A DNA stretch of 30,553 bases from a virus, in the IMG/VR virus record IMGVR_UViG_3300017987_000261, positions 1 through 30,553 of that record; one strand, written 5' to 3'. This document shows positions 1 through 30,553 of this stretch, one piece after another. The stretch's first letter is position 1. Each line of letters starts with the position of its first letter. The notes under the pieces are model-generated. The model was not told the origin of the DNA, made no database searches, and saw only the letters and a list, made by a program, of their open reading frames with translations. The position numbers were made by a program, and so were the translations under genes.

Positions 1-637
1 GTGCACAGTACCCTGCAACGTTTCCAGCAAGGGCTGATTTCCCCATTGAAGGCCTACCCGCAATGATTGTCAGATCTCCCTGGCTCAACTCAACCATGCT
101 ATCAACTGCCCTAATCCCTGTTGCTGCAATTCTTGCCCCGTCTGGATCTTGGTATCTCTCCTCGAGTTCATGCATCACTTTGGGAATCAAGTCCTTCACT
201 GGTGTGAGTCCTTGCTTCCCAACCCCCTGACTTGCACTTTTGACGGTTTGGTTGAGTAGGTTTGCCATTTCCTCAGCTGGCATTGATTCATCCGCTTGCT
301 TGATCACTTCAGCAACCTTCCGCTTCATTGCTGCTTGTTGCCCTTGCTCAAGCAACCGTGTTGCCCAAATTGCGAGGTTTTCACTTGCTGGGGTGTTGTA
401 CACCAAATCCGACAACCACCGGGTTTGGCTCTTTTCCCCCCATTCTTTGAGTTGCTCATTGACTGCAATCTCATCCACTGGGAGGCCTTTTTCGTAGACT
501 GAAATCGAGGCGTCATACACTTGAGCAAGTTTGGGGTTTGAGAAAAACTCCGGCTCCAAGGCCAAAACCTCGGGAGGCCAATTCGTCTCTTTGAGCAACA
601 TGCACCCAAGGACAGATTCTTCAAGATAGGTGTCCAT
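1..637 (-). CDS. dnaB: DnaB-like replicative helicase, N-terminal part (cut by window edge)
   Basis: The frame opens with ATG at 637 and stays open for 212 codons to the window edge. Residues 1-100 resemble the helical N-terminal domain of DnaB (MDTYLEESVLGCMLL start, then the PEFFSNPKLAQVYDA region). After a linker comes the start of the RecA-like ATPase core with a textbook DnaB Walker A, AGRPSMGKSALA, whose lysine is residue 200. The protein should be the hexameric 5'-3' helicase at the phage replication fork. Its start overlaps the stop of the initiator gene upstream (TGATG), so the two are translationally coupled. The Walker B and arginine-finger parts lie outside the window, so intactness cannot be judged. 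The family call is secure. The symbol is by homology only. Confidence 0.93.
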   Translation of the reverse strand, partial: MDTYLEESVLGCMLLKETNWPPEVLALEPEFFSNPKLAQVYDASISVYEKGLPVDEIAVNEQLKEWGEKSQTRWLSDLVYNTPASENLAIWATRLLEQGQQAAMKRKVAEVIKQADESMPAEEMANLLNQTVKSASQGVGKQGLTPVKDLIPKVMHELEERYQDPDGARIAATGIRAVDSMVELSQGDLTIIAGRPSMGKSALAGNVAGYCA

Positions 638-1518
638 CAGTAATCCCTTTCAGGAGGCACAGCCTCTTTCATGTAACAGGGGACTGGATCCAATGATTGT
701 TGTTTCGGTTTTGGTGGGTTTTCGGCAAGCTCTATAAATTCAGTCACTTTGCTTGAATTGCGGACAATCAGGTCTAGACGATCAAACTTTGTGTTTCTGT
801 CGTTTTCGCCTTGGTACCATGGTGAGGCGTGGTTTCCATCTATTGCCTTGCATAAATCCTCAACCGAATAACCCTCCGAAAGCCTTTCCTTGATAAGTTT
901 CCATTCTTTCCCTGACGATTTTGGCCTTGGGTGGGCTTTTGGATGGTGTTTTTTGTAGTGATTGAAAACCGCTAAAATCTCTTCTTTGTGATTTTTGGAT
1001 TCTGCAACTCCTATTTCCTGTTCCTGTTCCTGTTCCTGTTCCTGTTCCTGTTCCTGTTCCTGATTCGGCATACCCTTTCGGCAACCATCCGCGAAGGGTT
1101 TCAGATACCCTTTCCCTAACCGTTTCAGATACCCTTTAAGTGCATGATAAGCCTCAATTTTTAGACTGCATTCGGGCAGTTCATCCCAGGTGCCTCGCCA
1201 GCTTTTTACAACGTTAGGATTTTCGGGTTTGTTGTACCTAATTGCATTGGGAATCCACACCAAAGGGGCACTCCAATCTGCCTTTGCCATACCCTTCTGG
1301 GATAGTTCCCGAAAGGCTTCACGAAACCCTTTAACTACCCACCCGAGTCTATTGGATATTTCGTCCTCGCTCACTTCGTAAAGCCCCGGGATGTTTGTTG
1401 TGTGTTTATTTGTAAGCAAAAAAACCCACAATGTCTGAGCATTTGGTTGTGGTTTGGAAAGGGAGCGGAACTTCGCGTCCCCCCACATTCGGACATCAAT
1501 CTTGCGATATCTGGCCAT
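637..1518 (-). CDS. Phage replication initiator / helicase-loader protein (O/DnaD-like)
   Basis: This 293-aa protein begins MARYRKIDVRMWGDAKF, a common N-terminus of phage winged-helix replication proteins. Residues 1-110 form the likely DNA-binding domain. Residues about 153-168 are an alternating Glu-Gln run. The C-terminal part (ILAVFNHYKKHHPKA, SVEDLCKAIDGNHASPWYQ, KFDRLDLIVRN) matches the conserved tail of phage replication proteins thought to contact the helicase or loader. I chose ATG 1518 because GGAAG lies 8 nt upstream and the family motif starts there. In-frame ATGs at 1533 and 1572 would add 5 or 18 residues. It overlaps the preceding small gene by 23 bp and the helicase by 3 bp (TGATG). 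Its place directly before dnaB supports a role in origin recognition and helicase loading. Confidence 0.85.
   Translation of the reverse strand: MARYRKIDVRMWGDAKFRSLSKPQPNAQTLWVFLLTNKHTTNIPGLYEVSEDEISNRLGWVVKGFREAFRELSQKGMAKADWSAPLVWIPNAIRYNKPENPNVVKSWRGTWDELPECSLKIEAYHALKGYLKRLGKGYLKPFADGCRKGMPNQEQEQEQEQEQEQEQEIGVAESKNHKEEILAVFNHYKKHHPKAHPRPKSSGKEWKLIKERLSEGYSVEDLCKAIDGNHASPWYQGENDRNTKFDRLDLIVRNSSKVTEFIELAENPPKPKQQSLDPVPCYMKEAVPPERDY
1015..1062 (-). repeat. Hexanucleotide tandem repeat (8 x TTCCTG) in the initiator gene
   Basis: Eight perfect head-to-tail copies of TTCCTG (plus-strand reading; CAGGAA on the coding strand) encode the alternating Glu-Gln run between the two domains of the replication initiator. 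The unit is a multiple of three, so copy-number change would lengthen or shorten the linker without breaking the frame. Confidence 0.95.
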
Positions 1519-1702
1519 TTTTTGGGCTTCCATTCTCTGCGATATGGACCACGACATCTTTGAGCCAGTCAATCAGCGTTGGGACCTGCTCAAGGGTTAA
1601 AAAAATTCTGTCCGGATCATCCCAGCCGCACGACTGCTCAATCGTAACCCCACCATCTTTGTTTGGGTAAATCTGCAATGCTTCCATTTCCCATTTGGCC
1701 AT
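1496..1702 (-). CDS. Small hypothetical protein, first gene of the leftward replication operon
   Basis: This 68-aa protein is of unknown function. It is mixed polar (MAKWEMEALQIYPNKDGG start; later LTLEQVPTLIDWLKDVV, a probable amphipathic helix) with one cysteine and no membrane segment. ATG at 1702 is preceded by TTGAGGCG, a good ribosome-binding site ending 5-6 nt upstream. Its 3' end overlaps the initiator gene by 23 bp. It is the promoter-proximal gene of the leftward operon, directly downstream of the structured leader at 1718-1834, so its translation would be most exposed to any leader control. I do not recognise the family. The start and coding status rest on the ribosome-binding site, packing and composition. 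Confidence 0.65.
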   Translation of the reverse strand: MAKWEMEALQIYPNKDGGVTIEQSCGWDDPDRIFLTLEQVPTLIDWLKDVVVHIAENGSPKNGQISQD

Positions 1703-4679: not shown

Positions 4680-5540
4680 ATGTCAGAGAAAGAAGCAAAA
4701 CCAGTAGAGACGAAAGAAATTGCAACATTGGATGTGAGAGACGCAAGCGATCATGCAGTCGCTTTGATGCGCAAGCGGGTCGAAAATCAGGAGGAGATGC
4801 TCAAGATTGCAATCAAGCTCACCGGCCAACATCAATGGGTGATGTTTGGCGAGTCGTTGTACCCCACAGGGGGTTGTGCCGACACAATCCTGCGTAGGGC
4901 TTTTGGGCTTCACTGGGGAGAGAAAACCATCACGATCGAAGATACCCCGGACGGCAAACTTGCGACTTGCACAGCATGGCTGATGCAGGACGGTAGAAAG
5001 GTGGAAGCCTTCACGGGGTATCGGTTAATGACGGGCTTCATCAAAAATGAAGCTGATTTGAGGCGGGCTGTACTGGAAAACCTAAAAAGCGTTGCAGTGA
5101 GGGATCTCCTTGGTTTGCGATTCCGCACCCCAGAAGAGCTGAAACATTTAGGTCTTGACGTAACCAAACTTGAAAAACGTGTTGACTTTCAAGAGCACGA
5201 CAAACAAGGCAGTGAAGTGATCGCTCCCTTCGGAAAACAGAAAGGCAAACCACTCTCAGAGCTCAATGACGAAAACCTGCAATGGTTGGCGGAAGCTGTG
5301 AAAAAGAGTGTTGAGGATCCAACCAAGGAAAAGTGGAAAGCAAAGAATCAAGCCTTGGTTGAGGCGTGCCGCGAAGAATACAAAAGAAGGAGGGTTTCCA
5401 AGGAGGAAGAGAAAAAGGAAGCCAAAGAGGATGGGCCTCCCCCACCGGTTGATCCGGAGACAGGCGAAGTAATCAAAGATGAGCAGGATTTCGGACCAAA
5501 GGCTTGGGATGAGAAGAGCAAGGAGGAGCCCGGACTATGA
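4680..5540 (+). CDS. Putative single-strand annealing / recombination protein
   Basis: This 286-aa protein has ATG 4680 after a clear AGGAG at 4670-4674. The core (about residues 55-155) contains GESLYPTGGCADTILRRAFG, an alternating strand region, and ENLKSVAVRDLLGLRFRTPE. That layout is seen in phage proteins encoded between a RecB/Cas4-like exonuclease and a DUF1351-type protein. Residues about 180-235 (IAPFGKQKGKPLSELNDENLQWL) match a small module found at the ends of exonucleases and recombination proteins. The C-terminus is a charged, proline-rich tail. The single-strand annealing assignment rests on context and weak pattern similarity. It could instead be another recombination mediator. 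It overlaps the next gene by 4 bp (ATGA). Confidence 0.5.
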   Translation: MSEKEAKPVETKEIATLDVRDASDHAVALMRKRVENQEEMLKIAIKLTGQHQWVMFGESLYPTGGCADTILRRAFGLHWGEKTITIEDTPDGKLATCTAWLMQDGRKVEAFTGYRLMTGFIKNEADLRRAVLENLKSVAVRDLLGLRFRTPEELKHLGLDVTKLEKRVDFQEHDKQGSEVIAPFGKQKGKPLSELNDENLQWLAEAVKKSVEDPTKEKWKAKNQALVEACREEYKRRRVSKEEEKKEAKEDGPPPPVDPETGEVIKDEQDFGPKAWDEKSKEEPGL

Positions 5541-6517
5541 CAACAGCAATCACCGAATACCAAATTACGGAAGCAAAGCTCCAAGAGCTTCGGGAAAAGT
5601 TTTCTTGTGATGTTTGGGTTGTCGATACTCCTGACAGAATGAAAGCCGCAAAGGATGCAAGGGGGGAGATCAGGAGATGGAGGCTTGACCTGGAGTCCGA
5701 GAGAAAACGGATCAAAGCTCCAGCCCTCCAACGTTGCAAAGAGATCGACTCGGAAGCCAAGCGGATCACCGGTGAGCTTTTGAAACTCGAAACCCCAATT
5801 GCAGACGCGATCAAGGAAGTGGAGGACAAAAAGAAACGGGAGGAGGAGGCAGCAAAGCAAGCCGAGGAGCAAAGGATCAACAGGTGCCGGACCGAGATTG
5901 AGAATATTCGGCAAATCCCCATTTCCTATGTTGGCCAAGATTCCGAGACAATTGAGAAGGCCATTGATAGCACCCACGCTCTTGATCTCTCCCAAATGAA
6001 AGAGTTTGAAGGTGTGGCACAAAAGGCACGCAATGAAACCATTGAGAAGCTCAATCAACTCTTGAAGGATGCAATCGATCGGGAGAAAGAAAAAGACCGC
6101 CTTGAGGCTGAAAGGATTGAATTGGCCAAGAGGAAAGCAGAGCAGGAGGCCCAAGAGGAAGCTGAAAGGAAGAAACGGGAGGAGGAGGAAAGGGCTCGGC
6201 GCGCAAAGTTGGAAGCGGAAGAGAAAGAGGCACGAGAGCGAATAGCCCAGCAAGAAAGGGAAGCACGGGAAGCACGGGAAAGAGCCGATCGGGAAGCACG
6301 AGAGGAGCGCGCAAAACAAGAAGCGATTGCCTTGGAGGAAAAGAAAAAGGCGGATGCTTTGAGGGTTCAACGTGAAGTTGAGGAAAGAGAGAAACAACGA
6401 AAGAGGGCTCAGATTCTATCCGCTCGAGATCTCCTGAAAACATTTGTTGAGAGATATGGGGAGGTCGAGGAATTTGCTTCGGTAGTAAAGGCAATCAGGG
6501 GGTATTTTGATGAGTGA
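5537..6517 (+). CDS. DUF1351-like long coiled-coil protein of the recombination module
   Basis: This 326-aa protein has an N-terminal section (DVWVVDTPDRMKAAKDARGE, then LDLESERKRIKAPALQRCKE) typical of DUF1351 phage proteins, which usually lie beside RecT- or Erf-like genes. Residues about 165-290 are an almost uninterrupted Glu/Arg/Lys/Ala-rich helix with AREARERADREAREER-type heptads, a long charged coiled coil. A short globular end (LLKTFVERYGEVEEF) follows. The family's biochemical role is not established; an accessory or scaffold role in recombination is inferred. ATG 5537 overlaps the previous stop (ATGA). The 3' end overlaps the next gene by 8 bp. Confidence 0.8.
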   Translation: MTTAITEYQITEAKLQELREKFSCDVWVVDTPDRMKAAKDARGEIRRWRLDLESERKRIKAPALQRCKEIDSEAKRITGELLKLETPIADAIKEVEDKKKREEEAAKQAEEQRINRCRTEIENIRQIPISYVGQDSETIEKAIDSTHALDLSQMKEFEGVAQKARNETIEKLNQLLKDAIDREKEKDRLEAERIELAKRKAEQEAQEEAERKKREEEERARRAKLEAEEKEARERIAQQEREAREARERADREAREERAKQEAIALEEKKKADALRVQREVEEREKQRKRAQILSARDLLKTFVERYGEVEEFASVVKAIRGYFDE

Positions 6518-11277: not shown

Positions 11278-12534
11278 CTAGAATACACAGGCGGTGCCTG
11301 TAACGTCGCTCAGTTGGCGCCAGTCGTAACCAGTGCCATCAAGGTTCAAACAGATGCAAGGTTCGTCGTATGCCGTATTGTTGGTATCGTCGATGGCGAC
11401 AATCACGCCAGCATGAGTCGCGTCACAGGCGTGCGGTTCTGACGGGGCGTCAGCGGTGACTACTTCTGTTTTGATTGTGCCTGTAACGAACATATCACCA
11501 TTGTCTTGAAGCAAAAGCATCGGAGATCCGCCCCAACTAAGATCTAAAAGATAATCCTGCCCCGAACCGCTCGCGGTATCCGTCACGTCCAAATAGATAG
11601 CCTTATAGACAGCATCCCCGCTCTGGTTTAGATGAGGAGTAGCCTGGACCAGGTATTGCGTCCCTGTTGTGGCGGTCATTTCGCGCGCAGCTGCTCCCGG
11701 GAAATTCAACCACGCGGCACCAGAGTTGTTCCTATCCCCATCCTGATAGACGCGAGCACCGTTATAGCCATGCAGCTCTACCGTATTAGACCCACCTTCT
11801 GTGATGTATTCAGTCGCGTCCAGATAGACACCACTGCTACGAGTGCTGCAATCAGAAGCATAGAATCGAACTGCGCCATTGGTGTCCGCCGACATGCAAT
11901 ATCCAGCCGATTGAGCATCATTCCAATGGATTAGCTCACCGTCCGAGGGGGAGGTTATTTCTGAGCGACCTGTCCAATTGACCATAGATCCAGCCGCCAA
12001 CGTCACACCCGCATCACTCGTGATCGTGCCTGCAGTCAAATCAGCAATCACATCAATGTCATTATCAAAATCAAACCTGTCTTCATCCTCCATGTAGGTG
12101 ATCGATCCTTGCGCGGTAACCGCGTCAAAGGCCAGCACAACGTCAGCATCAGTCCCAACTGCCCCAAAGGTTACCGCTGCAGCGTTGTTGGTAAAGTTTG
12201 CTTCCGCACTACCAGTGATAGCAGCAGCAGAGAAGTTACCAGTGGCTACTATGTCATCAGTGCTCGTGTTGACATACCAAACTACACCGTCCGTGCCTCC
12301 GCCATCAACATCTGTGCACACCAAACGGAAGTTGTCTGTTGCTGCTCCTGTGTCCCACTCAAACCAACAATCGGGAGCGGCGGAAGTGTTTCCGAAGCTG
12401 ACCACGATATCATCATCCATATGGATCAAAGTACTACCACCCGCAGAACCCCCGGCAGATACCTCGGCAGTCGGGTAGAGGGTTTGATCGATCCAATCAC
12501 CTGTTGATAATGCCAGTATCAATAACAGTTTCAT
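11278..12534 (-). CDS. Tail-fiber-like repetitive beta protein
   Basis: This 418-aa protein is rich in Gly, Ala, Thr, Asp and Ser with short beta-repeat patterns (ITGSAEANFTNNAAAVTFGA, IDVIADLTAGTITSDAG), as in trimeric phage fibers. The N-terminus MKLLLILALSTGDW is short and hydrophobic, a marginal signal peptide. The C-terminal 50 residues have four cysteines and the motif DEPCICLNLDGTGYDW, a compact knob-like end also seen in other fibers. It would be host-recognition or appendage material. It follows the secreted gene at 12546 with an 11-bp gap. Its repeats resemble those in the decoration protein at 24378. Confidence 0.65.
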   Translation of the reverse strand: MKLLLILALSTGDWIDQTLYPTAEVSAGGSAGGSTLIHMDDDIVVSFGNTSAAPDCWFEWDTGAATDNFRLVCTDVDGGGTDGVVWYVNTSTDDIVATGNFSAAAITGSAEANFTNNAAAVTFGAVGTDADVVLAFDAVTAQGSITYMEDEDRFDFDNDIDVIADLTAGTITSDAGVTLAAGSMVNWTGRSEITSPSDGELIHWNDAQSAGYCMSADTNGAVRFYASDCSTRSSGVYLDATEYITEGGSNTVELHGYNGARVYQDGDRNNSGAAWLNFPGAAAREMTATTGTQYLVQATPHLNQSGDAVYKAIYLDVTDTASGSGQDYLLDLSWGGSPMLLLQDNGDMFVTGTIKTEVVTADAPSEPHACDATHAGVIVAIDDTNNTAYDEPCICLNLDGTGYDWRQLSDVTGTACVF

Positions 12535-12545
12535 TTCAAACCCCT

Positions 12546-13097
12546 TTAATCAGCAATGAGCCACACGTTGACTGTTACTGTATCGGAGGAGTCTGGAGTC
12601 CCTCCGTGAGACAAGACACACTTGATTGCTGGCTCACCATTCAGTCCGATGTATTGAACATAGTTTGCATCACCGGAGAATGCGTCCGCGGCGTCAGTCG
12701 ATGGTGTTGCGTCCGATTGCATGATCCAACCATCTTTGAGAGTGCACGTGCCTCCTGACACTTTGCAGGTTTGGGGTGTGCTGTAGGTTCCCGCCCGAGT
12801 CAATGATGCGGTGCACGTGGTTGTGATAACCCCATTGTTGTTGTGGGAGTACTGCACTTCAATTGCCATTTTGGCAAATCCCCGCAACTGTTCCCCGGTT
12901 GTGGCTTCCGTATTGTCCGTGTAATCCGTTGCGGTTACTCGAGGTCCCACATAGAAGGTCCGCGTTGCAGCTGCGCCGCTTAAATCCACATCGGTGAGGA
13001 CTGCACCAATCACATACACCTTATGCTGATCGTTTGATGCGCTTGCAGGAATGGCCACAACCAAGGCCAAGAGAAGAAAGAGAATCAGTTTTTTCAT
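12546..13097 (-). CDS. Secreted beta-rich protein, possible virion appendage
   Basis: This 183-aa protein has a textbook Sec signal peptide (MKKLILFLLLALVVAIPASA, cleavage after ASA). The mature part is Thr/Ser/Gly-rich and beta-like with four cysteines (TTTCTA, PQTCKV, GGTCTL, IKCVL). The end DTVTVNVWLIAD resembles C-terminal strands of small fiber domains. A virion protein assembled in the cytoplasm would not normally carry such a signal. It is located among fiber genes, so it may be a surface-displayed or periplasmic factor, or an appendage added late. No known family is recognised. Confidence 0.65.
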   Translation of the reverse strand: MKKLILFLLLALVVAIPASASNDQHKVYVIGAVLTDVDLSGAAATRTFYVGPRVTATDYTDNTEATTGEQLRGFAKMAIEVQYSHNNNGVITTTCTASLTRAGTYSTPQTCKVSGGTCTLKDGWIMQSDATPSTDAADAFSGDANYVQYIGLNGEPAIKCVLSHGGTPDSSDTVTVNVWLIAD

Positions 13098-23393: not shown

Positions 23394-24350
23394 TTAGGTG
23401 TTGTCAATCTTTAGCACTCGTTGCCATTTGGCATAACCGGCGCGACCACGCATGCGAGCCTTGAAGGCTTGCATTTCTTTTTCAAACCAAGTCGTTGAGT
23501 TCGGGCCGAGCTCCTCGAGAGAGATCCCCTCTCGATCCTGCCACACAAGACCGCGGATCTCTGCATCCATGATTCCGATGTAGTAATCAACGGCCGATGT
23601 CGAGGTCAACCGCGGCATCGGGATCAACTTGATTTCCCAATTCTGGAATTGGGTGTTGGTGGTTTGAGAGATCACGTTGGCTTGGGTGGCCTCACTGATC
23701 GCCTTGTGCAATGCCGGCGGATAGCCGATCCAAATCTTAGAGAAATACTCGTTGAGCGGCTCGGCTCCCTCATCGAGGAAATTGTAGAGCGCTGCAATGC
23801 CCGCACCGATATCGGTTGAGCAATTGGCGGTTGAGGTCCCTGCACCGGTCAAAAGGTTGCTCTGGGTGGAGCTTTGCTTGCCTCTGGCAGTATGAGACGC
23901 GCTGAAAAACTCAACGTCATCATACCCCTTGTCCGTGGTCCCATCGATCAGAGCTTGTACAAGCAGGGCATCTGCTTTTCGTGTTGCGCGTTGCGCCAGA
24001 TCACGGATTCGGATCCGCTGTCCGCCGGTTTTGCTGTCCGCGAGATCATCGCGGTTGAACATCAACGCGCCGGTATATTTCTTGTTGCGTAGCTCATAGG
24101 CTGCATCGGACGTTCCATCCTTGCAGACATCGGGGCCTTCCGTGAGATCCCCATACTCCAACTCATCAACAAACTCATCGAGCGGAGCAACCTCGCCCAA
24201 CCATGCATAGTTTTCCTTATCGGATTCACTATCCACGACTGTTGAGATCATTTCGACCAACGAGGGCCCCTTGGGCTCCATCAACGCCTCGATAAAGGTG
24301 CCTCGGACATCTTTTCGCAGCTGGTGCGGTGTATAAATTGGGTTTGCCAT
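23394..24350 (-). CDS. Major capsid protein (Mu gpT-like)
   Basis: This 318-aa protein reads NYAWLGEVAPLDEFVDELEY, then ELRNKKYTGALMFNRDDLAD, then ADALLVQALIDGTTDKGYDD and VEFFSASHTA. This is the pattern of Mu-type major head subunits (gpT family, HK97 fold). The end MQAFKARMRGRAGYAKWQRV is also typical. ATG 24350 has CAGGAG 7 nt upstream, and a stable hairpin follows the gene. It lies after the decoration protein as in the lambda D-E order. One copy per lattice position is expected, so it should be among the most highly expressed genes. Confidence 0.88.
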   Translation of the reverse strand: MANPIYTPHQLRKDVRGTFIEALMEPKGPSLVEMISTVVDSESDKENYAWLGEVAPLDEFVDELEYGDLTEGPDVCKDGTSDAAYELRNKKYTGALMFNRDDLADSKTGGQRIRIRDLAQRATRKADALLVQALIDGTTDKGYDDVEFFSASHTARGKQSSTQSNLLTGAGTSTANCSTDIGAGIAALYNFLDEGAEPLNEYFSKIWIGYPPALHKAISEATQANVISQTTNTQFQNWEIKLIPMPRLTSTSAVDYYIGIMDAEIRGLVWQDREGISLEELGPNSTTWFEKEMQAFKARMRGRAGYAKWQRVLKIDNT

Positions 24351-24377: not shown

Positions 24378-25754
24378 TTAGCTAGCCGGTCCGGCACAAA
24401 TGCAGGTGTCCGCGGTGGCCGAATTGCAGAGCACAAAATCAGTGTTGCCATGATCGAAACCAATCACACAAGAGCCAGTTCCCGCGCAGGTTGTTGAGCA
24501 CGCTTGATTATCGGCATCCGCGATTGTCCAGCCGATGGTTGCACCACTACCCAGGACCTGGAAGGTCCCGTCCGTTTCGATATTCAGAGTGGTAAAATCC
24601 ACTTTCGTAACACCAGTGTCAGAAGTGATTTCCACCGTGTTGCCAGTCCCGAAACCGAAAGAGATGTCCTCGGAGTTGTCTCCGATTTGGATCTCGTTAT
24701 CGGTATCTGAGACAATCGTTTGATCGTTGGCAAGGGTGATCGTGGTACCGAGAGCAGCAAGATCAATCGCAGCAACCGAGGTATCAGACGAAAGAGTCAG
24801 GGTGTCAGCAGTGCCAAACCCAAAACTAATGTCTTCAGAGTTGTCACCGAATTGGATTTCATTGTCGGTGTCACTGATGATCGTCTGATCTTCGGCAAGA
24901 GTGATCGTGGTGCCAACTGCAGCAAAGTCGATCGCCACAACTCCCGTATCAGAACTCAAATCAACAACGTTTGATCCACTGAAGCCAAATGCGATATCTT
25001 CGGAGTTGTCTCCGATTTGGATTTCGTTATCGGAATCGGACACAATTGTCTGATCGTTAGCTAAGGTGATTGTGGTTCCAACACCTGCAAAATCCCACTC
25101 AACCACACCCGTGTCTGAACTCATCGCGATCTTGTTGGTGTCGAAATCGAAAGAGAAGTCCTCTGAATTCTCTGTGAATTCGATTTCCGTGTCTACCGCC
25201 TGGCCAATCGTTGCGGCTTCAGAAAGAGTCAGTGCTCCGGTGAGGGTCAAGGGCTGAGTAACCGCAACGCGACCTTGATAGATCACATTGACATCAACCC
25301 AACACTCACTAGCGGAAATATATTCAACCATCAAACCCGCAACAGGCTCATTGCTTCCAACCGTTTCATCGACAGTCTGATCATCCTCAGCATACAAAAT
25401 TGATCCGACGTCATCTTGTCCGAGGGTTGAGCCTGCAAACTTGAACCACCCAGATCGCACCGTGATGTAATACGATCCAGAAGCTCCGGAGGTCACGGTC
25501 TTGGTTGCAACACCCACAACTCCGTTATTGCTGGCGCTGGCGGCTGCAGCTTCGGCGGTGCCAGAGCTGTTGATCATAACCATTCCACCGGCGTAGATGG
25601 TCTCGGATGCCGCCATGAGATACCGCTTAACGGCTCCGGCGTTTTTCACTGAAGTATATCGGGCAGCACTCAGGGCGGTTGCTCCGGCATCAACAGCGAA
25701 AGTCAAAACAAGCGCCATTGCAAGCGCGCTCAAAATTGTCTTGAAGGTTTTCAT
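24378..25754 (-). CDS. Capsid decoration-like protein with signal peptide, 55-aa repeats and Cys-rich tail
   Basis: This 458-aa protein begins with residues 1-26 that form a textbook Sec signal (MKTFKTILSALAMALVLTFA, cleavage near AGATA). Residues about 40-165 (VKRYLMAASETIYAGGMVMI; YYITVRSGWFKFAG; DVGSILYAEDDQTVD) resemble DUF2190-type capsid cement proteins. Residues 215-379 are three 55-aa repeats (TTITLA[N/E]DQTI, DNEIQ, GDNSEDI). The last 45 residues hold six cysteines and end TADTCICAGPAS. Position between protease/scaffold and capsid protein is that of lambda gpD. ATG 25754 has GGA 9 nt upstream. The signal peptide conflicts with cytoplasmic capsid assembly. An uncleaved N-terminus or a surface role is possible. 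Confidence 0.7.
   Translation of the reverse strand: MKTFKTILSALAMALVLTFAVDAGATALSAARYTSVKNAGAVKRYLMAASETIYAGGMVMINSSGTAEAAAASASNNGVVGVATKTVTSGASGSYYITVRSGWFKFAGSTLGQDDVGSILYAEDDQTVDETVGSNEPVAGLMVEYISASECWVDVNVIYQGRVAVTQPLTLTGALTLSEAATIGQAVDTEIEFTENSEDFSFDFDTNKIAMSSDTGVVEWDFAGVGTTITLANDQTIVSDSDNEIQIGDNSEDIAFGFSGSNVVDLSSDTGVVAIDFAAVGTTITLAEDQTIISDTDNEIQFGDNSEDISFGFGTADTLTLSSDTSVAAIDLAALGTTITLANDQTIVSDTDNEIQIGDNSEDISFGFGTGNTVEITSDTGVTKVDFTTLNIETDGTFQVLGSGATIGWTIADADNQACSTTCAGTGSCVIGFDHGNTDFVLCNSATADTCICAGPAS
24618..25112 (-). repeat. Three tandem 165-bp coding repeats
   Basis: Units at 25112-24948, 24947-24783 and 24782-24618 each encode 55 residues beginning T(G/S)V and containing GTTITLA and GDNSED. 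The third unit begins TSV. Partial, more diverged copies flank the array. DNA similarity remains visible, suggesting recent duplication or ongoing exchange. Confidence 0.9.
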
Positions 25755-25768
25755 TTTCTTTTTTCCTT

Positions 25769-27145
25769 TCAGTTGAGGCCCAGAGCCGCGTCAACTTCGT
25801 CCCGCTCTACTTCTCGGCCATCACGGAGGATCACCTTTCCATTCATTTTCACGCCGGAAATGTGCTCACCGTAGGCTTCCAGCTTCCGGTGATGGGCCGG
25901 AGTTACACCCATGGTTTTGGCCAAAGCTTTGTCAGCTTCCGTGAATTGATCTTGATTGGCTTTGTTGTCGTCCTTGTCAACATCCACCGAGAGACGATCC
26001 GGGCGGGTCACCTGAGGCAATGCCTCAAGATATGCCTGGAACTCTTCTGGCTTCATGGTGGCACCGAGTTTTTCAACCGCCTCCTTGGACGCGGGGGAGA
26101 CTCGATCCTCGTATTGCTCCATGAGGCTTTTGAGTTGTTGGGTTTTGAGCTCTGCAATCGTTGCGCGGTTTGCTTCTGATTCCGCTCGCAATTGCTCCAA
26201 CTCGGCTTTCATCTCTTCCGCCGCCTGGTTGGCGGTCGGGTCGCTGGTCTTATCCATAGCGATCTCCATTTCCTTGCCCACCTGGGGCGTTTTCTGATTG
26301 ACCACAGGCTGGCGATTTCCAACTGTGGCGGATTCACGAATTTTGTCGATGAGACCCAAGCCCTTTGCTTCCACACCCAGCCACACCTGGCCGGTTGCAA
26401 CTAGGTTGACTTTGGCCTCCTCCAATCCTCTCCCTCGAGAAACAGCCTCCTTAAAGTAGCCAAAAAAGCTGTCAATTTTTCTCTGGATGTCTGCAAGTTG
26501 GGGTTTGGTAACCTCGGCTCCAACAACTCCGATCCCTTTTAACTCATGAGTTGAAACAACGTGAGTTTTAACCCCTGCATCCTCAAACATCCGAGAGGAA
26601 TCCCGGATCACGGTGTAAACGCCGATCGAGCCGATCATAGCGGTCTTGTTGCTATCGATGGACTCGGCTTGTGATGCGATCCAATAGGCTGCACTCGCGG
26701 CCATGTCCTCAACACGCGCTGTGATTGGTTTTTCTGCTTTCTCTCGGACGTTGAAAACAAAATCGGCAAGCTCTTGGACGCCTGTCACTGTCCCGCCTGC
26801 TGACTCAACTTCGAGCTGAATCCGCTCAACGTCATCATCGGCGAGAGCGGCCTTGATTGCTTCCTCGGTCTCACGTGTGGATGTGGCATCAATCCCGAAA
26901 TACCGAAACACGCAAGGCACTTCCTTGAGGATCGTGCCCTTGATCGGTACGTGTGCAACCCCGTCTTTGGTCTCGTACCCTGGGCCCTCGGGCTTTTCTT
27001 CACCCTTTGCCGCTCTGATTGTCTCGGCATCGATCATGATCGCGCCTTCAATCAGCTCAGTCACAAACTCATGAAGACGGGCTGGCTCCATTGCCCAAGG
27101 CTCGGAAAGGAGATCTCTCACAAACGTTTTAGGCTTCAACTGCAT
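25769..27145 (-). CDS. S49-family prohead protease fused to scaffold-like C-terminus
   Basis: This 458-aa protein is from ATG 27145 (GGAGGAA upstream). Residues about 1-290 are an SppA/lambda gpC-type serine peptidase. The nucleophile is Ser151 in MAASAAYWIAS. The general base is Lys203 in STHELKGIG, 52 residues later, the usual Ser-Lys spacing. MIGSIGVYT lies between them. Residues about 300-458 are a charged helical region (MKAELEQLRAESEANRATIA) with no protease motif, expected to serve as the internal scaffold (as Nu3 in lambda) before cleavage. It overlaps the portal gene by 17 bp. A separate scaffold gene is absent, which supports the fusion. Confidence 0.88.
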   Translation of the reverse strand: MQLKPKTFVRDLLSEPWAMEPARLHEFVTELIEGAIMIDAETIRAAKGEEKPEGPGYETKDGVAHVPIKGTILKEVPCVFRYFGIDATSTRETEEAIKAALADDDVERIQLEVESAGGTVTGVQELADFVFNVREKAEKPITARVEDMAASAAYWIASQAESIDSNKTAMIGSIGVYTVIRDSSRMFEDAGVKTHVVSTHELKGIGVVGAEVTKPQLADIQRKIDSFFGYFKEAVSRGRGLEEAKVNLVATGQVWLGVEAKGLGLIDKIRESATVGNRQPVVNQKTPQVGKEMEIAMDKTSDPTANQAAEEMKAELEQLRAESEANRATIAELKTQQLKSLMEQYEDRVSPASKEAVEKLGATMKPEEFQAYLEALPQVTRPDRLSVDVDKDDNKANQDQFTEADKALAKTMGVTPAHHRKLEAYGEHISGVKMNGKVILRDGREVERDEVDAALGLN

Positions 27146-28589
27146 CCGTGGATTCCTCCTCTTCAGGCTCAATCGTATTCATGGGGGCGCTTGAAGGTTG
27201 CGGTTTGCGTGACGTGGCTTCATCTCTCGGAGTGACTTGGAAAATATCTCTCAAGTTGTCCTCAAGCGGATCGTCCGGAGTCACAAGGTTGGCATTTGTT
27301 GCGTTGATCAATTGTGGGAGTACTTCCGCCCAATCCCGTGTGGGTAAATTGCGGGCCTCTAGGGTGGGGACCTCATCAACTCGACCGTAGTTGAGTTCCA
27401 AGATCCGGCGCACAGGGCTCCAACCATCACAACCCAAGGTGAATGCACCGGCAACAAACTTGCTGTGCCCTACGGTGCTCAAATGGTATTGAGATTTTTG
27501 TGTGAATGAGAGTCCATAGCTACCATGTCCACCGGTGAGGCCAAGCAACATAAATCCTGCAGAAACGTTGTGAGCAATTGCAATGTCACAACGCGCGATT
27601 GCTCCGTCGGTATCGGTGCCCGTGCCTTTGTTTCCTGTGTCCCAAGAGAAGGTCCAACCACTCGGGAAGATCACTGCACCGTGAGAATTAGTCCGGAGTT
27701 GCTCCAAGGTTTCCCGCGCGGCGTCGATGTCTTCGTCGTTTACTTCCTCGCCGAGGATTACATAGGGAGTCCCTACCCCCCTGCGCTCATGTTTGATTGC
27801 ATCGATTGCCATAAAAGCAAGTTTTGCTTTCCAGGGTCCATAAGTTGACCGCAAAAGAGCCATTCCAGCGAAATAGGCTCCTTTTTGATCGAAGGTGAGG
27901 CGAAGAATGCGATCCGCAGGGATTTCGCGGTAACCAACCTTTTCTTTATCGTTGTAGGGTTGATATTGAGTGATGCGATCCAACCAAAGGCTGTTTTGCT
28001 TGCTTTGCCACCATCGCTCTACCGTGTTGCCTGGGATTTCATGGATCCCATTGATTGCAATGCCTCTGCCCTTGCCGGGATGCAGTGGGAAACGATCAAC
28101 CGGGATGTCAACGTAGTCGTCGGTGATTTCAGAGAGTGAAAACCCATCAACGCAGTAGTCAGCAACAATCCGTTTGAGGATTTGATCCCAATTCAGGCGG
28201 TCAGTGAAAACCCAATTACAAAATTGAGCTTGCTCCAAGTGAAGGGGGGATTTGCTGACAGGTTTGAAACACCAATTTGCAGATCGAAGGGGATCGGTAA
28301 CGAGGGAGATTGATTGCCGGACGTGCGCATCCCTGAGCATTTTGCCCGAGATTCCGATGCCACCTTGAGCCCCGTACCAAAGCGGACCTTGCAGATTGGG
28401 GTTGTTTTCAAGATCATCGAGGAGACCAGCTGTGATTGATGTACCAGAGCCACCTATCCGGCGAGATCTGGCGTCATTCTCCTGGCGTGCGAGCCCTGGG
28501 GATTGTCCGCTGATTGCTCCGATGTAGGGGGGAGGGCTGATTCCGATGTTTCCCGCGATATATGGTAAAAGGCCAAGCCCAAATCCCAT
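27129..28589 (-). CDS. Portal protein (Mu gp29-like, DUF935)
   Basis: This 486-aa protein contains HVRQSISLVTDPLRSANWCF, then FCNWVFTDRLNWDQILKRIV, ERWWQSKQNSLWLDRITQYQ and GMALLRSTYGPWKAKLAFMA. It ends in an acidic tail. The central wing/stem pattern is that of Mu gp29 (DUF935) portals, twelve copies forming the DNA channel at one vertex. No ribosome-binding site is evident before ATG 28589; a promoter-like sequence lies only 10-38 bp upstream, so a leaderless mRNA is possible. It starts the head cluster and overlaps the protease gene by 17 bp. Confidence 0.88.
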   Translation of the reverse strand: MGFGLGLLPYIAGNIGISPPPYIGAISGQSPGLARQENDARSRRIGGSGTSITAGLLDDLENNPNLQGPLWYGAQGGIGISGKMLRDAHVRQSISLVTDPLRSANWCFKPVSKSPLHLEQAQFCNWVFTDRLNWDQILKRIVADYCVDGFSLSEITDDYVDIPVDRFPLHPGKGRGIAINGIHEIPGNTVERWWQSKQNSLWLDRITQYQPYNDKEKVGYREIPADRILRLTFDQKGAYFAGMALLRSTYGPWKAKLAFMAIDAIKHERRGVGTPYVILGEEVNDEDIDAARETLEQLRTNSHGAVIFPSGWTFSWDTGNKGTGTDTDGAIARCDIAIAHNVSAGFMLLGLTGGHGSYGLSFTQKSQYHLSTVGHSKFVAGAFTLGCDGWSPVRRILELNYGRVDEVPTLEARNLPTRDWAEVLPQLINATNANLVTPDDPLEDNLRDIFQVTPRDEATSRKPQPSSAPMNTIEPEEEESTDAVEA

Positions 28590-28704: not shown

Positions 28705-29436
28705 TTATTGAGGGTTGAGGGAATGTAATTCCTTGACAATATGGCCGATCACTTCCGCACACTGGGGGACAACTGCGTTGCCTAGGGCTCTAATTCTGTC
28801 CATCCGGTGGGGAAGCCCATCATCTGCTCTAGGAACCGGGGATCCGGGCTCCCTCCGGCCAATGTCCACAAACTCGGTTTGCCCTTCAATCGGTACTCTT
28901 TCCGGCCATCGTGTGGACATCCATTGTTTGAGGTCCCGTAACGGGTGGCGGTTGGTGTGGGCAATAACGAAGATTCTACCGCGGCGATGGGGAGCGCCAA
29001 CATAGCGCGCTTCAAGTTGGACAGGAAACGTTTGGTAACCTTGCTCTTCCAACCGCTGGCCGATGGTTTCAACCCATCGCCTAGCGTTGCCTGCTGTGTT
29101 TTCAATGACAACCCATGTTGGGTTGAGCTTGAAAACAACTCTTTCAAACTCATACCAGAGGCCACTCCTAGCGCCAGAAAGGCCACGTCCTTTAGGATTT
29201 CCACTTGAGATATCTTGACACGGGAAGCCCCCGCACAAGAGATCGACATTTCGTGAATGATCATCTGGGAATCGTCTGACATCCTCAAACCTCTCAACAT
29301 CCGGCCAATGTTTCTCCAACACTCGCCTGCAAAATGGATCAATCTCAACTTGCCAAAGCACAGGACCCAGCCCGGCACGTTCCAATCCAAGCTCTAAGCC
29401 ACCGATACCTGAAAACAGCGAGCCGATTGTCAACAT
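28705..29436 (-). CDS. Short DNA (cytosine-5) methyltransferase
   Basis: This 243-aa protein has the ordered C5-MTase motifs. Motif I is LFSGIGGLELG (residues 7-17). Motif IV is GGFPCQDIS with catalytic Cys73. Motif VI is VVIENTAG with Glu112. Motif VIII is QLEARYVGAPHRRGR, and motif IX/X is RIRALGNAVVPQ. The target-recognition segment between motifs VIII and IX is only about 60 residues, much shorter than in host enzymes. It transfers a methyl group from SAM to cytosine at a short unknown site, and no matching restriction gene is present, so protection from host restriction is likely. It overlaps the HTH gene by 7 bp. It lies between terminase and portal, an unusual place for it. Confidence 0.93.
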   Translation of the reverse strand: MLTIGSLFSGIGGLELGLERAGLGPVLWQVEIDPFCRRVLEKHWPDVERFEDVRRFPDDHSRNVDLLCGGFPCQDISSGNPKGRGLSGARSGLWYEFERVVFKLNPTWVVIENTAGNARRWVETIGQRLEEQGYQTFPVQLEARYVGAPHRRGRIFVIAHTNRHPLRDLKQWMSTRWPERVPIEGQTEFVDIGRREPGSPVPRADDGLPHRMDRIRALGNAVVPQCAEVIGHIVKELHSLNPQ

Positions 29437-29618
29437 TTCAACCTCTTCACATCATCCTTGCTCAACCAGTAACATCCGCCGGCATCAACACGCACATATT
29501 GCAGTTTGGAGGGCCTCCCGCGCCTGAAATCCCTGCACCATCGCCGGATTGTTTTGACGTGCACACCGAGGAGCTTTGCAGCGTTACGGGGCGATATTTC
29601 ACCGGGTTGCCGTGACAT
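29430..29618 (-). CDS. MerR/excisionase-like helix-turn-helix protein
   Basis: This 62-aa protein begins MSRQPGEISPRNAAKLLG. AAKLLGVHVKTIRRWCRD is a clear helix-turn-helix, followed by a wing (KLQYVRVDAGGCYWLS) and a short basic end, as in excisionase/MerR-type small regulators. ATG 29618 overlaps the terminase stop (TGATG). A longer frame from 29795 would run inside the terminase gene and is rejected. It may regulate the late operon or the methyltransferase. As it sits next to terminase it could also be a small DNA-packaging accessory. Three cysteines are present, with no zinc pattern. Confidence 0.7.
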   Translation of the reverse strand: MSRQPGEISPRNAAKLLGVHVKTIRRWCRDFRRGRPSKLQYVRVDAGGCYWLSKDDVKRLKC

Positions 29619-30553
29619 CAGTATTGATCCGGGTCCCCGCGTGGTCGAAATCTCAACGGACGTGGGCTCATCTCCTCCCGCCTCCGTTTCTCCAACTGAT
29701 CCTTTGGCGTCCGAGTTGTTTTCTGTCGGATTGCTGCCATGCTCATTCCAGAGAATGCTCTCATTTTCAAAATTCCAATTCTGTAGCAGGAACACGCGAT
29801 CCCTTCCGTAATGTCCCTGTGCATTTTGTCACGCTTCCGATCCTCAACCTTGCGCTTACCCTCTTTCGGCGCGCCTCTCTTCACTCCCTTGAATTCATCT
29901 TTGATTGCTTTCACATCTTGGAGCAAAATTGTTTGCCTGAGAATTCTCTCCTCCAAAAGATCCCAACCGGTTTGAGACTCGCTACCTCCACCCTTCCAGG
30001 TTTTCACCTTGCCAACCCATTTCCCCGATAGCTTCCGGATGTCTCGCATCATCTGCACAGGCCATTGAGCCTCAAGGCCCTTGTCTTTTTTTACGGCTCC
30101 CACCTTGGTGTCCACTTCAAAAATCTGGAGGTTAGGATACAAGGGCAACAGGTTCTCGAGATAGCGCTTGACCTCATTTCCATCGATGTACTTTGCTTTG
30201 GTATTGACCCCTGGCCACCAATACTTCAGGTGTGAAAGGTAGATATGCTCCCAAGGGAACTCTGACTCAGGATCCTCAGCCAAAATCACAAAAGATGTTT
30301 TTTCAACCGACGTTGAGGTATCGAGAAACCCAACACATTTGTTTTTGCATCCATCTTCATTGGTGAGACTGCGATCACAAACTCTTTTCACGTCAGAGGG
30401 ACTAACCACGTCATCACCCCGCCTCAATCGGTGTCCTTCAGCCTCGACACCTGCAAATGCCTTTGTTGACTCCAACGCACCGAAAACCTCGGAGACTGTA
30501 TCAACCATTTTGACAGAAGTGGAAGGATTGAGAGTCTCTTTGGTTGCAAACAC
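29618..30553 (-). CDS. Terminase large subunit, C-terminal part (cut by window edge)
   Basis: The frame is open at the right edge and ends at 29618 (311 codons in the window). VGFLDTSTSVEKTSFVILAE has the first acidic motif of the RNase H-like terminase nuclease. YPNLQIFEVDTKVGA and AQWPVQMMRDIRKLSG follow, and KMHRDITEGIACSC fits the last acidic/His motif (often HDDxxDALA). The C-terminal 50 residues are highly basic (EKRRREEMSPRPLRFRP). The ATPase half lies outside. With a Mu-like portal next in line, a Mu gp28-like or Terminase_6-type packaging motor is likely. The nuclease motifs are somewhat degenerate, so the call is moderate. Confidence 0.7.
   Translation of the reverse strand: MFATKETLNPSTSVKMVDTVSEVFGALESTKAFAGVEAEGHRLRRGDDVVSPSDVKRVCDRSLTNEDGCKNKCVGFLDTSTSVEKTSFVILAEDPESEFPWEHIYLSHLKYWWPGVNTKAKYIDGNEVKRYLENLLPLYPNLQIFEVDTKVGAVKKDKGLEAQWPVQMMRDIRKLSGKWVGKVKTWKGGGSESQTGWDLLEERILRQTILLQDVKAIKDEFKGVKRGAPKEGKRKVEDRKRDKMHRDITEGIACSCYRIGILKMRAFSGMSMAAIRQKTTRTPKDQLEKRRREEMSPRPLRFRPRGDPDQY

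Follow-up and report, generated by a model that had tools for sequence, protein, structure and literature searches.

A putative capsid head fibre with a predicted Sec signal peptide in the head-gene cassette of a tailed phage

Results

A head-fibre-like protein in the cement gene place

The window analysed here (the whole 30,553-nucleotide stretch of the IMG/VR virus record IMGVR_UViG_3300017987_000261) encodes a 458-aa protein that looks like a capsid head fibre and carries a predicted Sec signal peptide at its N-terminus. We propose that Sec exports this fibre, which would then be trimmed, undergo oxidation in the periplasm and attach to completed capsids when the cell lyses, a reading to which we give a probability of about 0.55. 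The gene occupies the place of the cement family, between the gene for an S49 protease/scaffold and that for a Mu-gpT-type capsid protein; annotation of both neighbours confirmed this position, which a sequence-only reading of the window had already assigned. The features of the locus are as follows.

24378..25754, (-) strand: whole gene, 458 aa, ATG start; signal peptide, cement base, repeats and six-cysteine tip
25764..25769, (-) strand: ribosome-binding site AAAGGA, ~10 bases 5' of the 458-aa gene's ATG
25680..25754, (-) strand: predicted signal peptide, residues 1-25, predicted cut AGA↓TALSAAR; from n/h/c regions, shuffles, homologue alignment, pN/pS and an AF2 helix
25260..25679, (-) strand: capsid-cement (head-fibre base) domain, residues 26-165; from PHROG_1731, AF2 and Foldseek
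24555..25193, (-) strand: fibre-like repeat region, residues about 188-400; four NSED units at a spacing of 54-55 residues
24381..24548, (-) strand: six-cysteine tip module, residues 403-458; from 20 viral loci and AF2 of the module
25769..27172, (-) strand: S49 head maturation protease/scaffold, upstream neighbour, a few bases from the 458-aa gene
23394..24350, (-) strand: major capsid protein of the Mu gpT type, downstream neighbour, without a signal peptide

The sequence-only reading had also credited the protein with a signal peptide (given as residues 1-26) behind a good ribosome-binding site, a cement-like region at residues 40-165 and six cysteines in the last 45 residues. Each of these held with slightly shifted limits: the predicted signal peptide covers residues 1-25, with AAAGGA before the ATG, the match to PHROG_1731 lies at residues 26-154, and six of the seven cysteines (C419, C423, C429, C443, C451 and C453, but not C151) fall within the last 40 residues. 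A later start codon was considered and rejected, the next one being a GTG at residue 36 that lacks a ribosome-binding site and would remove the conserved LSAAR. Elsewhere in the window, eight perfect TTCCTG hexamers (1015-1062) lie in the ORF at 637-1572 (-), where they encode an (EQ)n run and form a possible slippage site, and a C5-cytosine DNA methylase gene (28705-29436, (-) strand) is located between the portal gene and the ORFs of 29430-30553.

The PHROG_1731 match (virion structural protein; E = 1.7e-19) spans positions 2-133 of the 135 in the profile, and a search of solved structures by sequence returned no relevant match. An AF2 model built from 22 sequences gave pLDDT values near 90 over residues 31-165 and over the tip. 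Using Foldseek, the cement base was matched to capsid decoration chains of Pam3 (8hdt_G, 6e-5), T1 (9kzj_I, 1e-4) and HFTV1 (8qsy), and to the base of the phi29 head fibre gp8.5 (6qyy, 21% identity); matches to gpD (1c5e) and SHP (1td0) were weak. The best viral fold match bears the name "capsid fibre protein." Taken as a whole, the protein resembles a head fibre, with a base, a shaft and a tip. We infer that the fibre may be trimeric, the repeat region being poorly modelled at a pLDDT of about 50.

The N-terminal segment

Residues 1-25 (MKTFKTILSALAMALVLTFAVDAGA) end in AGA and are followed by TALSAAR. They comprise a positive n-region and a hydrophobic core of 15 residues, whose Kyte-Doolittle values average 2.6, and follow the (-3,-1) rule; the 22-sequence AF2 model places a helix at residues 2-19. 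When the N-terminal residues were shuffled and scored with a simple signal-peptide rule, 61 of 20,000 shuffles scored as high as the native sequence. With a choice among several start codons, 29 of 238 control ORFs pass this rule as well; the N-terminus of the 458-aa protein is thus by itself little proof, and the comparative evidence carries the case. Between the window and its relative at locus L002, the signal segment is 52% identical and the cement domain 83%. Within the segment, pN was 0.28 and pS 0.66, non-synonymous differences thus being much rarer than synonymous ones; by this measure the segment is under purifying selection, as expected of a signal peptide. Sec export is, with high confidence on these comparisons, the best explanation of the N-terminus. 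A lipoprotein was considered and rejected: the AGA↓TALS boundary has no Cys and there is no lipobox, a lipobox-like Cys being found only in L003.

Signal segments at one boundary in several phage groups

Cement homologues were classed as tagged when a hydrophobic N-terminal segment ended directly before the start residue of untagged relatives. Nine are tagged, the window's protein included. Alanine occupies position -1 of the boundary in 9/9, and A or V position -3 in 8/9, the exception being S in L145 (window, AGA↓T; L002, AQA↓T; L004, AHA↓T; L011, VSA↓G; L012, AHA↓G; L032, AQA↓A; L047, AFA↓M; L143, AFA↓A; L145, SYA↓A). Untagged relatives begin M-ALSAAR or M-ALTADR at this boundary, and the PHROG_1731 match in the window's protein opens where the signal peptide stops. 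In L047, the segment is placed 5' of the old start, whose Met is retained, and AGGAGGTGA lies before the GTG start. Ribosome-binding sites precede all five unfused tagged starts.

In a tree of 45 cement domains, tags occur at three or more separate positions, and a single clade was rejected (p-AU 2e-76). The alignments and tree suggest that signal segments were gained independently at one boundary, in at least three unrelated phage groups. Two untagged members (L005 and L083) nest in the window's clade, so the trait appears to have been both gained and lost. Homologues that start past the hydrophobic segment, which the sequence-only reading had regarded as fatal to export, are indeed numerous; they do not refute it, because the family contains both tagged and untagged members and purifying selection acts on the segment. 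A long C-terminal extension is present in 6/6 members of the window's tagged clade, compared to 9/37 untagged homologues (p 0.0008, uncorrected for relatedness), and the extensions of the tagged clade are richer in cysteine than untagged ones (p 0.003, likewise uncorrected). The tagged cement domains of L004 and L032 have a cysteine pair at the same two alignment positions.

For one untagged orthologue, virion data exist. Mass spectrometry of virions purified on CsCl detected ORF h of phage PaMx73, encoded between protease-scaffold and capsid genes, and a role as decoration protein was proposed for it (PMC4378225). Its orthology to the tagged cement proteins is linked via L145, and the tagged forms are probably virion components as well.

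In three relatives, the S49 protease/scaffold, the signal segment and the cement domain share one open frame (L011 3844-6612, L012 4543-6906 and L032 3820-6288), with profile matches to both the protease and the cement families; there the segment is internal and is not preceded by a strong ribosome-binding site. L143 (2246-4339) has a like fusion involving a protease of another family, phrog_328, with AGGTGA 5' of a double ATG before the segment. These fused forms, the strangest part of the finding, would either be polyproteins in which the signal sequence is internal or make use of nested starts.

Cysteine tips and repeats on other phage proteins

The six-cysteine tip was found at 20 viral loci, with 6/6 cysteines invariant throughout. 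Its modelled fold (AF2 on the module alone, pLDDT 92.8) is without a close match in the PDB copy searched, the fold search having returned nothing significant. Among 15 distinct tip carriers outside the cement family, 14 start with a signal peptide, compared to 29 of 238 control ORFs; the sole exception, in L060, is a tailspike-like protein. Tip carriers are often found within head-gene cassettes, several of them downstream of portal genes (L065 and L066), a head-morphogenesis gene (L051) or capsid genes (L054, L057 and L062). In L055 (2976-6150), the products of four successive genes all score as signal-peptide-bearing, and the last has the six-cysteine tip. The module was absent from the 50,697 isolate phage records searched; no copy was found in plasmids, or in 398 genomes of one bacterial phylum in a genome search run without a positive control.

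A search with the repeat region produced matches in L002's contig and L003 only. In L003, the gene at 4848-5762, directly 3' of a P22-type portal gene, encodes a lipoprotein-like protein with no cement domain that carries the window's fibre repeats and a second cysteine tip module. This second module, found in L004, was traced in 55 distinct copies. Its tagged carriers have cysteines in matching columns (four in L004, four in L145, three in L003, where the contig ends, and two in L143), whereas untagged carriers mostly have 0-1 cysteine, at other columns; L036, with five extension cysteines, and L124, with three module cysteines, are untagged exceptions. Among the second-module carriers L140 and L152-L173, several hits of the signal-peptide rule were left out of account because the starts concerned lie inside untagged proteins. 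Across these sequences, export signals and cysteines go together, with L060, L036 and L124 as exceptions.

Two proteins encoded in the window's tail region share some of these traits. The product of 12546-13097 (-) contains cysteines and begins with a clear signal peptide, MKKLILFLLLALVVAIPASA↓SNDQH. That of 11278-12534 (-) is fibre-like; its C-terminus is rich in cysteine, and it starts with a short hydrophobic stretch. The L004 genome encodes homologues of both; the L004-phage homologue of the 11278-12534 product has a clear signal peptide, and L190 4830-5855 begins MLRLLFALCLLPHVAMA. The window's phage group may export fibre-like proteins habitually.

Discussion

In the proposed route, Sec would recognise residues 1-25 of the head fibre, and signal peptidase would cut after AGA to leave TALSAAR..., an N-terminus located where cytoplasmic cement relatives begin. 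The six tip cysteines would then form disulfides in the periplasm. At lysis, released heads would meet the exported fibre pool and the N-terminal base would bind the mature capsid, with the repeats pointing the oxidised tip away from the head, where it would serve as a stable surface module or an adhesin. T5 pb10 associates very fast with DNA-filled and expanded capsids, which it binds with picomolar affinity (PMC5292684); an exported pool could therefore decorate heads at lysis. Procapsids of JBD30 lack the decoration protein because its binding sites form only upon expansion (PMC11445458), which fits late addition. Cysteines alone do not require export, because the major and minor capsid proteins of JBD30 have disulfides without it (PMC11445458). 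For structural proof JBD30 was set aside: in its gene numbering the decoration protein (gp39) comes after the capsid gene (gp38; PMC11445458), so gp39 was not taken as an orthologue.

The exported decoration protein envisaged in the sequence-only reading gains from these analyses on the side of export, given the independent appearance of signal peptides and the cysteine-tipped C-termini. Three fates had been offered, namely coating of virions in the periplasm during lysis, display on the host surface, and an uncleaved N-terminal helix kept in the virion; the last now seems the least likely. The head-fibre look with its separate tip, the occurrence of the tip on other exported phage proteins and the protease/scaffold-segment fusions extend the earlier proposal. 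More tentatively, and at somewhat less than even odds, several tailed-phage groups might complete their virions outside the cytoplasm by mounting Sec-exported, oxidatively folded fibres at lysis, some of them via a scaffold-protease/fibre polyprotein with an internal signal sequence.

The main rival accepts export and places the protein off virions, either in the periplasm or on the host surface, where the base would hold capsids of sibling virions or superinfecting phages, or in the host envelope. The tip and repeats do occur on exported phage proteins lacking the cement base, one of them lipoprotein-like (L003), and the many tip carriers within head cassettes are not necessarily virion parts. 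However, the cement base has been kept under purifying selection (pN 0.13, pS saturated), and every tagged locus in the window's lineage retains the classic cement gene place; we consider a role off virions unlikely, though still the foremost competitor. It is distinctly less probable that export does not occur at all and the segment is a cytoplasmic pro-segment, linking cement to scaffold or prohead and cut by the phage head protease. Such a linker would suit the four relatives in which protease/scaffold, segment and cement form one frame (L011, L012, L032 and L143), and S49 is the SppA family. The charged n-region, long hydrophobic core and A at -1 are nevertheless Sec traits that would be superfluous in a cytoplasmic linker, and similar signal peptides are present on related module-bearing proteins in phages whose portal proteins are P22-like (L003, L065 and L066). 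Moreover, L143 shares the segment despite its different protease family, and the cysteine tips would be left unexplained.

Retention of the hydrophobic helix as an inner-membrane anchor for the cement or fused scaffold, with head assembly or decoration taking place at the membrane, is more doubtful again. The fused frames would yield an N-in membrane segment behind the scaffold, but the -1 alanine in 9/9 at the exact ancestral N-terminus points to cleavage, and the mature start is conserved next to a segment that is not (the 83% and 52% identities between the window and L002). An artefact, from a wrong start codon or a chimeric contig, deserves the least weight and is very improbable: later starts do exist in untagged relatives, yet the window's gene offers no alternative start with a ribosome-binding site, and recurrence of the same arrangement in nine loci, with ribosome-binding sites before the five unfused tagged starts, refutes it.

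The prevailing view is that tailed-phage heads are built and completed in the cytoplasm. In a limited search of the open-access literature, no described precedent for exported decoration proteins was found, and the terms "signal peptide," "periplasm" and "export" are all absent from a 2020 review of decoration proteins. If true, a Sec-travelling head fibre would add an extracytoplasmic step and account for the ability of phages to present disulfide-bonded modules. It would also suggest a class of exported proteins concealed in the head-gene cassettes of uncultured phages, and would provide a natural design for placing disulfide-rich domains on capsids.

Known systems share parts of this arrangement. 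PaMx73 ORF h, representing PHROG_1731 in Pseudomonas Mu-like siphophages, belongs to the same family and gene place as the window's protein but is short (132 aa), with no signal peptide, repeats or cysteine tip. We know of no signal peptide on phi29 gp8.5, which is alike in the fold of its base and in having a protruding C-terminal part. The stem of gp8.5 is a helical supercoil (PMC6542822), whereas the window's protein has repeats and a six-cysteine tip. T5 pb10 and T4 Hoc likewise combine a capsid-binding base with an outward module and are able to bind finished heads (PMC5292684), but their folds are unrelated and export is not described for them. The likeness to lambda gpD and SHP of phage 21 is one of genomic position and weak fold match (1c5e and 1td0); neither matches the window's protein in sequence, and gpD is small, cytoplasmic and without a tip. 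Virion proteins made with signal peptides are familiar from filamentous phages, whose coat proteins pIII and pVIII are of this kind. Those virions are assembled at the membrane, however, whereas the window's capsid would be built in the cytoplasm and the fibre alone is tagged.
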